A DNA stretch of 44,019 nucleotides from Candidatus Kuenenbacteria bacterium (lineage in GTDB: Bacteria > Patescibacteriota > Patescibacteriia > UBA2196 > GWA2-42-15): assembly GCA_012797775.1 (NCBI GenBank), contig JAAZOM010000009.1:1-44019 (forward strand). The letters run 5' to 3'. Below the pieces are notes generated by a model. That model was not told the origin of the DNA. It did no database searches and was given only the letters and a program-made list of their open reading frames with translations. Within the stretch, counting starts at the first letter, position 1. Every line of letters begins with the position of its first letter. Positions 756 to 25,269 of this stretch are shown piece by piece. The translations under genes and the position numbers were made by a program.

Positions 756-782
756 GGATCCCTTGGCTTCGCTCGGGATAAA
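756..782. repeat. Dispersed palindromic repeat, intergenic copy
   Basis: GGATCCCTT at 756-764 and TCGCTCGGGATAAA at 769-782 form a short imperfect palindrome (ATCCC/GGGAT) just after the alaS stop. The same 14-mer TCGCTCGGGATAAA recurs at 22115-22128 inside uvrC, again preceded by GGATCCCT. It is a REP-like element. Confidence 0.65.
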
Positions 783-21167: not shown

Positions 21168-22499
21168 TTAATTAATTTTCCTCAAATTTTTTTGATAAGA
21201 AATAGCAAAGCGGTGGGCTTCGTCGCGGGCGCGGATAAGCAAATTTTCGTTGGCTTGAATAAAGTCAGCGATTTTTTGATTGTCTTTATCAAAAATAAAT
21301 TCGTTTTTTTTGCGGGTTGGGCCTTTGGCAATACCAATAACGCCAAGAGTTAAGAATATAGATTTAAGATTTAAGATTTTTAAAACAGCATTTCTTTGAG
21401 GCACGCCACCATCGACAATGATTAAGTCTGGTATGGGCCAGCTGTTTTTTAATCTTCGCTCAATAATTTCTTTGAGACAATCAACATCGCTTTGGCCGGA
21501 CACGGTTTTAATTTTAAATTTGCGGTATTCCGATTTAACTGGGCCATTATTATTAAAGACAACCATGCTACCGACCTTGCCAGTGGAGCCGAGATTAGAA
21601 ATGTCATAAGCTTCAATTCGGCTAGGGCGGTAGGTTGGTGGGGCGGTAGGTTGGTGGAAATTATTGAATAAATCTTTGTTTAATAGTGTCACATCTTGGA
21701 TATGTTGAAGGGATTTAATCTGGTTGCGGAGGCGAGCGGCTTCTTCAAAATTTTGCTGCTTAGAAGATAAAAGCATTTGTTTTTTAAGATTAGAGAGTAA
21801 TCTTTTTTTGTTGCCTTTTAAAAATTCGATTAGGGGTTTAATAACTTTTTGTTTATATACTTGCGGAGTCATTTCGCCAGTGCAAACTCCAAGGCATTGG
21901 CCGAGCTGGTAATCAAAACAGGGTTTGGGTTGGTTGGGTGCGCATCGGGAAATATAGAATAGTTTGTGTAAAAGCTTGAGAGTTTCACGGGTGTTTAAAC
22001 TTGGGAATGGCCCAAAGAGTTTTTTCTTTTTTATAAGTTTATCTTGAGCGGAGTGAAAGATCCTGTGGCTAGTGTTTTTCAAAACGGGATCCCTCGACTC
22101 GTCACTGGCGTTTCTCGCTCGGGATAAATTTGATACAATTTCATGTTGTCTAATGGTTTTTAGTTTGGGAAATTTTTCATTAGTTAAATATAAATAATTC
22201 CAACTTTTGTCGTCTTTCCAATCAATATTATATTTGGGCCGATATTTTTTGATATATTGACCTTCTAAAATGATAGCTTCTAAAACCGAATCTGTTTTAA
22301 GGGTTTTAATTTTTTTTACTTCTTCAATCATGGATTCTATGGGTCGAGAATTTTTTTGTTTGCCGGCGAAGTAGCTTCTCACCCTGTTTTTTAAAGAAGT
22401 GGCCTTACCAACATAAATCAGCTCATTATTGAAATTATAAAAGAGGTAGATACCGGGAGAGGCGGGGAGAGATTTGAGTTGGGATTGAAGAATTAACAT
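21168..22499 (-). CDS. uvrC: Excinuclease ABC subunit C, short form without HhH domain
   Basis: 443 residues, against about 600 usually. Seen in order: GIY-YIG nuclease (GIYLFYNFNNELIYVGKAT, about 15-33); a repeat-derived insertion (about 120-157); the KLFGPFPS motif; Cys-rich CAPNQPKPCFDYQLGQCLGVC; UVR motif (NFEEAARLRNQIKSL, about 255); RNase H-like 5' nuclease with YDISNLGSTGKVGSMVVF, DLIIVDGG and RDEAHRFA. The protein stops right after RDEAHRFAISYQKNLRKIN, so the (HhH)2 DNA-binding domain is absent. It lies 13 nt downstream of uvrA. Two more repeat-derived stretches are seen at about residues 281-292 and 373-380. Confidence 0.95.
   Translation of the reverse strand: MLILQSQLKSLPASPGIYLFYNFNNELIYVGKATSLKNRVRSYFAGKQKNSRPIESMIEEVKKIKTLKTDSVLEAIILEGQYIKKYRPKYNIDWKDDKSWNYLYLTNEKFPKLKTIRQHEIVSNLSRARNASDESRDPVLKNTSHRIFHSAQDKLIKKKKLFGPFPSLNTRETLKLLHKLFYISRCAPNQPKPCFDYQLGQCLGVCTGEMTPQVYKQKVIKPLIEFLKGNKKRLLSNLKKQMLLSSKQQNFEEAARLRNQIKSLQHIQDVTLLNKDLFNNFHQPTAPPTYRPSRIEAYDISNLGSTGKVGSMVVFNNNGPVKSEYRKFKIKTVSGQSDVDCLKEIIERRLKNSWPIPDLIIVDGGVPQRNAVLKILNLKSIFLTLGVIGIAKGPTRKKNEFIFDKDNQKIADFIQANENLLIRARDEAHRFAISYQKNLRKIN
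21361..21381. repeat. Heptamer array inside uvrC
   Basis: GATTTAA, GATTTAA, GATTTTT: three 7-nt units (21 nt, in frame), translated on the minus strand as part of VLKILNLKSIF, just after the VDGGVPQRN motif. Confidence 0.5.
21625..21656. repeat. Two 16-nt direct repeats inside uvrC
   Basis: GGGCGGTAGGTTGGTG occurs twice in tandem (21625-21640 and 21641-21656). On the minus strand it is translated as the Pro-rich HQPTAPPTYRPS between the UVR and RNase H-like domains. Confidence 0.8.
22041..22128. repeat. Composite palindromic repeat inserted in frame in uvrC
   Basis: Two REP-like palindromes back to back: ATCTT...AAGAT (22041-22061) and GGATCCCT...TCGCTCGGGATAAA (22087-22128). The latter shares a 14-mer with the intergenic element at 769-782. 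Translated on the minus strand it gives LSRARNASDESRDPVL...HSAQDK, which has no place in the UvrC family between KLKTIRQ and KLFGPFPS. Confidence 0.8.
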
Positions 22500-22512
22500 T
22501 ATATATTATTTA

Positions 22513-25269
22513 TTATTTTAAAATTTTTCGTAAATACTCGCCGGTGTAGGAAAATTTATATTGGGCGACTTGTTCGGGGGTGCCGGCAAAGACTAGTTCG
22601 CCGCCAAGGTCGCCGCCTTCGGGACCGAGATCAACAATCCAATCAGCGCATTTGATGACGTCAAGGTTGTGTTCAATTACAAGTACAGTATTGCCCTGAT
22701 CAACTAGGCGCTGCAAAACAGCGATTAATTTTCTAACGTCATCATAATGCAAGCCGGTGGTAGGTTCGTCTAGCAAATATAAAGTTTTAGTAGTATTTCT
22801 TTTGGCCAGCTCGCGAGAAAGTTTTATTCTTTGGGCTTCACCGCCGGAAAGCGTGGTGGCTGATTGGCCAAGCGTCAGATAGTCTAGGCCGACTTCGTTC
22901 AAGACTTTTAGCTTATCATAAATAAAAGGAATATCTTTGAAAAATTTTTCTGCTTCGGCAATAGTCATATTGAGAATATCAGAGATATTTTTATTTTTAT
23001 AATGAATCGCCAAAGTTTCCTTATTAAACCTTTGGCCACGGCAGGCGTCGCAAATGATTTCCACACTGGGCAAAAAATGCATTTCAATTTGAAGGGTCCC
23101 CCGACCTTCACATTTTTCACACCGACCGCCGATAGAGCGGTTTGAACCTTCCCGTGGCGGGATACTTGGCACATTAAAGCTAAAACGGCCTGGACCATAG
23201 CCTTTCATCCGAGCTTCCGGCGTCATGGCAAAAAGATTTCTGATTTCATCAAAAGCCTTGGTATAAGTTGCAGGATTAGAGCGAGGAGTGCGGCCGATGG
23301 GGCTTTGGTCGATTTCAATAATTTTATCAATATACTCGGTGCCGGAAACTGATTTATGTTTACCGACATGATATTTGGTATGATTGAGATGATTGCTGAT
23401 AGTGCGGTAAATAATTGAATCCATGAGGGTGGATTTACCAGAGCCAGAAACACCAGTGAGACAAACAAAGCGACGGAGCGGAATTTCCACATTGATATTT
23501 TTTAAATTATTTTCACTGGCGCCAGTGATTTTTATTTTGGGCGTAGCAGGGTCGACTTTGCGGCGTTTGGCTGACAAGGGGATAGTCAGTTCGCGGCGGA
23601 GGTATTGGCCGGTAAGAGATTTTTTGGGGTCACCAATAATTTTGACATCTGGTAACTCGTAACTCGTAGATTGTAACTCGCGATTGGATTTTTTATTTAT
23701 TGATTTTAAAATATCAACCGTGGGGCCGGAAAAAATAATTTCGCCACCGTTGACGCCAGCACCGGGGCCAATATCCACAATCCAATCACTCATGAGAATA
23801 GTATCTTCATCGTGCTCAACAACTATAATGGTGTTGCCAATATCAGCCAGGTTTCGGAGGGTATTGACGAGTTTTTCATTATCGCGTTGATGTAAACCAA
23901 TGGTTGGTTCATCCAAAACATAAAGCGCGCCAACCAGCCGAGTGCCAACTTGCGAGGCTAGCCGGATTCTCTGGGCTTCACCGCCAGAAAGCGTGCCGGC
24001 TTTTCTATTCAAACTAATATAGTGCAAGCCGACATCCAGCATAAATTGCAGGCGATTGCGAATTTCATTTAAAACCACGCCAGCGATTTCTTTTTCACGA
24101 TCAGATATTTTTTCTTCAATTTTATCCAATAATTTATAGGCTTCGCCGATGGTTTCATTGGTAAAATCCCAAATATTTTTATTGTTGATTTTGACAGCGA
24201 GGGCATTATTATTCAATCTTTTGCCGTGGCATTTGGGACAAGGAGTTTCGGAAAAAAGTCCGTCAGTGCCGAGCCCGGTGCAATATTCGCAATAACCATA
24301 AGGAGAGTTGAAAGAAAAAAGGCGCGGTTCAATTTCGGGGAATGAATAGCCATCCTTGGGACAAGAAAATTCAGTACTAAATATTTGTTCATTAGTATCT
24401 GGATAAATTACAGTGCATAGACCATTGGATAAATCTATGGCAGTTTCAATGGCTTCGTTTAGACGACGGTGAAATTCATCTTTTTGTAACGAGTAATGTG
24501 TAACGGGTAATGTGTAATTAGGATTATTTTTATCTTTCTGAGTTTTGTTAATTGTGTTTTGGGTATTGATAAGTGGAATACGATCCACGATGACCTCAAT
24601 GGTGTGTTTGAAATTTTTTTGTAAAATAATCCGGTTACGCAGAGATTTTATTTTGCCGTCAACTCGGACTTCCAGAAAGCCAGAATTGTAAAAATCATAA
24701 AGCATCTGATAATATTCGCCTTTGCGGCCGCGGACAACAGGGGAGAGAATAAGAATTTCATTATCCATTTGGGTTTTTGATGATACCCCCTCCCTCCGCT
24801 TCACGGAGTGCTCCCCCTTAGTAAGGGGGAGACTTTTAAGGTGCTTGTGGATTTGGACAGCCATTTCATCGGCAGTCATTTTGGAAAGCTTGGTGTGGCA
24901 AAGCGGGCAATGTGGTTCGCCAATGCGGGCATAAAGGACGCGCAGATAATCATAGATTTCGGTGATAGTGGCGACAGTGGAGCGGGGATTGGCGCTATGT
25001 GCTTTTTGGTCAATAGAAATGGCTGGCGAGAGGCCGTCGATTTCATCGACATCTGGTTTTTGCATACCGCCCAAAAATTGACGGGCATAGGCAGAGAGTG
25101 ATTCAATATAGCGGCGCTGACCTTCAGCAAAAATGGTATCAAAAGCCAGACTGGATTTGCCAGAGCCAGAGAGACCAGTGAAAACAATCATTTTGTTGCG
25201 CGGGAGCTCCAGAGAAATATTTTTGAGATTATGTTCGCGGGCGCCCTTGATTATTATTTTTTCTTGCAT
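22513..25269 (-). CDS. uvrA: Excinuclease ABC subunit A, lacking the insertion domain and carrying repeat-derived inserts
   Basis: 918 residues from the ATG at 25269 ([17 protein letters not shown]). Both ABC ATPase halves are complete: Walker [10 protein letters not shown] and GVSGSGKST, signatures [12 protein letters not shown] and [12 protein letters not shown], Walker [11 protein letters not shown] and [10 protein letters not shown]. The UvrB-binding region is present. The zinc module 2 cysteines (CEYC and CPKC) are only about 15 residues apart: the insertion domain of roughly 100 residues normally between them is gone. Three extra stretches come from repeats: about residues 147-162, 236-262 and 530-541. 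One expected Cys of zinc module 1 is Asp (CPKDG). uvrC follows at 13 nt. Confidence 0.96.
23652..23679. repeat. Heptamer array inside uvrA (inter-ATPase linker)
   Basis: Four 7-nt units: GTAACTC, GTAACTC, GTAGATT, GTAACTC. On the minus strand it is translated as [10 protein letters not shown] just before the SLTGQYL motif. Confidence 0.75.
24486..24520. repeat. Heptamer array inside uvrA (UvrB-binding region)
   Basis: Five 7-nt units: GTAACGA, GTAATGT, GTAACGG, GTAATGT, GTAATTA. On the minus strand it is translated as [11 protein letters not shown]. Confidence 0.75.
24546..24564. repeat. 19-mer shared with secA
   Basis: The complement reads ACCCAAAACACAATTAACA, identical to 43784-43802 in secA. 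Both genes translate it in the same frame: TQNTIN here and TQNTIN in SecA. Confidence 0.8.
24794..24831. repeat. Double hairpin inserted in frame in uvrA
   Basis: CTCCG-CTTCA-CGGAG (24794-24808) and CTCCCCCTTA-G-TAAGGGGGAG (24811-24831), the latter a perfect 10-bp palindrome. On the minus strand it is translated as [16 protein letters not shown], between IHKHLK and [10 protein letters not shown], where UvrA families have a short loop. Confidence 0.8.

Follow-up and report, generated by a model that had tools for sequence, protein, structure and literature searches.

The uvrC gene of a Candidatus Kuenenbacteria bacterium (21168-22499 on the minus strand; 443 aa with GIY-YIG, UVR and RNase H domains according to the ORF list and Pfam) contains a complete 91-bp palindromic doublet at 22038-22128, delimited by pattern search on both halves and by folding, which belongs to a multi-copy, otherwise mostly intergenic repeat family and is read through in frame. 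All positions refer to the window, the whole 44,019-nt stretch of DNA that was analysed. The minus-strand translation of the element, NLSRARNASDESRDPVLKNTSHRIFHSAQDKL, is stop-free and flanked by KLKTIRQ and KLFGPFPS. This agrees with the original prediction of a palindrome translated as an insert of about 30 residues in UvrC, which had located the element correctly but had assigned it to 22041-22128, three bases short of its exact extent. We consider it highly probable that the insert arose by unspecific insertion of a non-autonomous, REPIN-like doublet, followed by survival in a tolerant loop and an open frame.

The element is a tail-to-tail doublet with the layout TTTATC..GGATCC-spacer-GGATCC..GGATAAA, its order being TTTATCTTGAGCGGAGTGAAAGATCC, 23 bp, GGATCCCTCGACTCGTCACTGGCGTTTCTCGCTCGGGATAAA, together 91 bp. 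Pattern search placed half-element 1 at 22038-22063 (GGATCTTTCACTCCGCTCAAGATAAA on the minus strand) and half-element 2 at 22087-22128 on the plus strand (GGATCCCTCGACTCGTCACTGGCGTTTCTCGCTCGGGATAAA), separated by the 23-bp spacer at 22064-22086, which is also supported by copy context. A single half-element, recognised by sequence and pattern search, lies in the gap after alaS (756-782, plus strand). As predicted, it has a 14-mer in common with the uvrC element, TCGCTCGGGATAAA, which is found at 22115-22128 and 769-782.

Copies were counted by searching the 930-kb genome with the half-element pattern GGATYYYTYN{4,30}TYRRRATAAA, with the reversed pattern as control. The pattern gave 25 matches (16 forward, 9 reverse), of which one or two (C29:15919, perhaps C6:13095) are probably due to chance, compared to none for the control; the family is therefore no chance resemblance. 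Reading of their sequences showed that the pattern copies have TTTATC/GATAAA as outer and GGATC as inner ends. The occurrence of several matches as divergent pairs, 23 or about 50 bp apart, at C6, C9 (uvrC), C13 and C22 (two pairs) identifies the doublet as the complete unit. ORF context showed that the pattern copies outside uvrC are intergenic or touch one of the two ends of a gene, some of them immediately preceding what are likely the starts of genes resembling mnmA and rfbD (names from translation only). The doublet at C22:16229 (L303) provides the TGA stop of the upstream gene, which ends in ..YSNLS. BLAST added two in-gene copies, one a half-element within tgt, the other a doublet within the gene of a DUF2079 protein, so that three in-gene copies were found in the genome including the one in uvrC. 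Similarity between copies is only about 75-95%, and single-half BLAST searches gave modest E-values, 1.5e-4 at best.

Pattern counts were 15 in the same-genus genome G001, 6 in the family member G005 and 0-2 in the other class genomes tested. The family is thus restricted to this lineage, being frequent in the sister G001 and in G005 and almost missing outside the order. The element very probably spread within the genus or family as a non-autonomous, REPIN-like palindromic doublet, presumably by transposition. With regard to MITEs, the elements show inverted termini. No target-site duplication was identified when copies with their flanks were inspected by eye, reading of the pattern copies by eye revealed no GTAG or CGTC tag on the element, and an Rfam search of 21900-22300 returned no family match. 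The term REP-like in the original prediction is appropriate for the architecture, while membership in RAYT-driven REP/REPIN families is not borne out, the own genome having no match to the Y1 transposase (PF01797). A RAYT as the present mover was rejected, because the own genome has no such gene and the element flanks neither of the two Y1 loci inspected among the three PF01797 matches of G001. Y1 transposase scored above the cut-off in 109 of 191 genomes of the class.

Folded singly, the two uvrC halves were no better than chance, with z-scores of -0.56 and -0.2 relative to shuffles, and the whole element reached z of about -2 as DNA and -2.7 as RNA. Pairing occurs mainly between the halves, so that the original description as two back-to-back palindromes lacks precision. 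Among seven other doublets or stretches of doublet size, five gave z-scores of -4 to -8 and two did not fold in this way; the strongly folding doublets, as wholes, show internal hairpins, whereas the uvrC halves form none of their own. The uvrC copy folds much more weakly than most other doublets and has thus probably lost pairing by decay. It would persist as a passenger whose pairing is slowly lost and whose peptide is presumably neutral.

The uvrC doublet is open in only one of its six frames, which is the frame actually used; of four intergenic doublets tested, three lack any open frame. Open frames per doublet (0 or 1 of 6) do not exceed those of shuffles, and no peptide is conserved across copies. 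As openness is not above that of shuffled sequences and most intergenic doublets are closed, the uvrC copy is a permissive survivor and not a specialised coding element. The possibility that the element is specially open to translation was rejected, half-elements being open in 64% of frames compared to 61% in shuffles.

UvrC looks intact and is under purifying selection. The domains PF01541, PF02151 and PF08459 all scored above the Pfam cut-off, alignment-invariant UvrC columns are retained, and comparison with uvrC of G001 over 404 codons gave dN 0.17, dS 1.38 and dN/dS about 0.13; the protein is presumably made. Its nearest named relatives, from which the host is placed in Patescibacteria, share only about 41-47% identity. 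AlphaFold positioned the insert between beta strands 113-117 and 161-165 with a pLDDT of about 57, compared to 86.7 overall, and it is thus modelled as a floppy loop of 30 residues after the GIY-YIG domain. A PDB sequence search retrieved no solved chain spanning the UvrC middle with the insert. Neither G001, of the same genus, nor the order member G006 has the element in uvrC; their joins are different and shorter, and both contain a common AT-rich tandem repeat (NWKLEIGNWKF) at the join site. The proposed conversion of an intergenic-type repeat into coding sequence is hence supported by a repeat that is multi-copy between genes, missing from these two related genes and stop-free within a gene under purifying selection. 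The copy would have entered uvrC on the branch of the own species, in the sole frame left open, adding about 30 residues at the tip between two beta strands after the GIY-YIG domain. UvrC would still work, and the copy would have survived, because this tip tolerates changes in length.

The variable join with the insert comprises UvrC codons R117 to G163 (22011-22151, minus strand), as defined by join comparison and insert DNA. This R...FG join measures 45 aa here, while the modes among 233 UvrC are 10, 16 and 28 aa, in line with the prediction that the join is short in other UvrC. Inspection of the long joins detected a homologous peptide in 0 of the 233 UvrC, so that the original interpretation was not refuted by a peptide shared among UvrC of many phyla. 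Long-join outliers from different families have the appearance of translated repeats and all differ from one another: SPNPSLLRRGG..LPLTKGETEG in G031, PPSKGGDSGGDYPPLSKGR in G007, PPQPSLTLREGDRSFFPLRVRG in G072, SVIASEAKSRDAANG..RGSPRNDK in G385 and SSSARASLGMTKNG..HLTLALPSGRG in G321. The insert of G379, a congener of G321, combines several repeat families. By inspection, the DNA of several such inserts is a palindromic doublet. Matches to the inserts were present in the respective own genomes at 35 (G321), 28 (G379) and 15 (G385) places, and the G072 insert had 8 matching places within its own 19 kb, which shows these inserts to be repeats.

Furthermore, 121 UvrC of the class were scanned against a uvrC-masked database. 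The scan yielded repeat-matching segments, some of which (L226, L257) are weak or of low complexity and not all of which are proven to be mobile; 12 of them, from 10 genes, lie at model positions 123-124, so that besides the own uvrC nine of the 121 have a differing repeat-matching segment at the join. The remaining segments are for the most part confined to a small number of further loops (50, 159, 251-256 and 318-321), matches at 394-398 representing the conserved RDEAHRF sequence and not being counted. The UvrC loop is a recurrent landing site for unrelated repeats.

All three in-gene copies found sit where a relative has a different repeat or repeat-like insert. Tgt of the own genome (L002) reads KVYPERSEG.. 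at the loop where its congener G001 (L329) has RSTVIPDLIGNPEKSKSKKELDPRVSLAELNSRSPEDDS, and the DUF2079 protein (L009) contains the doublet at the site where G004 (L336) has CHCEEEQSDDVAISLREATLTGSRRPPQSRGPRDDS, both of these relatives' inserts being called repeat-like by sequence appearance alone. At the DUF2079 site, G001, G003 and G005 have no insert. Because hairpins are about 15 times rarer inside genes (0.057 per kb) than between them (0.85 per kb), unspecific insertion combined with selection on loop and frame accounts for these observations. Different repeat families would share the UvrC tip because selection purges insertions nearly everywhere else in genes.

Recurrence could alternatively result from insertion bias instead of tolerance if the elements or a transposase favoured this DNA site or earlier repeats within it. 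The composite nature of the G379 insert, the different repeat-like inserts of the own genome and G001 at one tgt site, and the AT-rich tandem repeat that G001 and G006 have at this position of uvrC are consistent with such targeting. However, the site is common to families of unrelated sequence and other UvrC loops take up repeats too, which fits protein tolerance and makes a targeted hotspot rather improbable. It is similarly improbable that the UvrC tip, the Tgt loop and the DUF2079 loop serve in this class as genuine common hotspots of integration, at which elements of unrelated families recognise earlier repeats or local DNA; if they did, intergenic repeats would continually add new peptide loops to housekeeping enzymes.

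A still less probable explanation, to which we give very little credence, is that repeats in DNA-repair proteins are selected because they change repair and raise mutability, as has been speculated for intragenic REPs in a study that names UvrABCD and RecBCD as proteins tagged by REPs (PMC3733652). Within the window uvrA and uvrC both have translated repeats, of different families, the one in uvrA being a different palindromic repeat (CTCCCCCTTA/TAAGGGGGAG...GGGGGT; 24785-24831, minus strand) that is read in frame as a 17-residue peptide. Nevertheless, uvrC was not detectably hit more often than length-matched neighbouring genes (3/119 compared to 5/279, P = 0.70) or, for long hairpins, than genes of any length (8/119 compared to 63/1570, P = 0.15), both comparisons being of low power, and Tgt and the DUF2079 membrane protein also carry copies. 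A preference for uvrC over other genes is thus not supported by these low-power tests. The uvrA repeat lies on the margin of the match to the UvrA interaction domain and, by inspection, resembles the UvrC repeat of G031 (L180 insert). An assembly artefact or a pseudogene is hardly credible, since, although palindromes are prone to misassembly and the genome exists as a draft in 31 contigs, the frame is open through insert and flanks, dN/dS is low, invariant residues are kept and analogous inserts occur in many independent genomes.

Insertion of a doublet into a tolerant loop relates to several described systems; the phenomenon of in-frame palindromes is known, and new here, as far as our literature search goes, are the host group and the unusually clear same-site recurrence. 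Rickettsia palindromic elements (RPE; Ogata 2000, 2002, reviewed in PMC10969869) are, as far as the account in the review goes, found in frame in unrelated genes and predicted to be compatible with function. The family described here resembles them as a dispersed palindromic repeat in frame in unrelated genes (uvrC, tgt with half an element, DUF2079). However, the RPE of that account encode a peptide that is conserved, and genes harbour about half of the RPE first described (PMC10969869), whereas the present copies are mostly intergenic and have no conserved peptide. GTAG/CGTC REP dimers have opposite orientation, spacers of 20-100 bp and in-frame inserts of 20-30 residues; excinuclease ABC genes are among the targets of intragenic REPs, with one same-site case, recB of two Xanthomonas (PMC3733652). 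Opposed halves, a short spacer, an in-frame insert of similar size and an excinuclease gene are features in common with these dimers, while the host group and the presence of many unrelated families at the same site of one gene differ. As in REPIN-RAYT systems (PMC3116915), where they make up a single mobile unit, two palindromic halves are present in inverted orientation, here with a short spacer and in many copies between genes, but the own genome is without Y1 transposase and the inspected Y1 genes of G001 are without a flanking element. Coxiella QMITEs (PMC5896051) are likewise MITE-type elements adding in-frame residues, with different sequences and a different host. Our literature search found no paper on palindromes translated in CPR proteins. 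Protein-coding palindromes, best known from Rickettsia, are hereby extended to small Patescibacteria-like genomes, and one enzyme's loop filled by many unrelated repeats provides a natural map of insertion tolerance. It also lets preferential decoration of repair genes be tested, which is unsupported in this sample of low power, and annotators should expect such peptides and avoid calling them domains.

Further repeats were observed in uvrC of relatives. An AT-rich tandem repeat encoding the peptide (I)GNWKLEIGNW is present in uvrC of three genomes (L030, L031 and L287), in two different UvrC loops. The N-terminal extension RRTPSPGLRPPSPLGRGEGEG of the uvrC product L041 / G037 resembles a further translated repeat.
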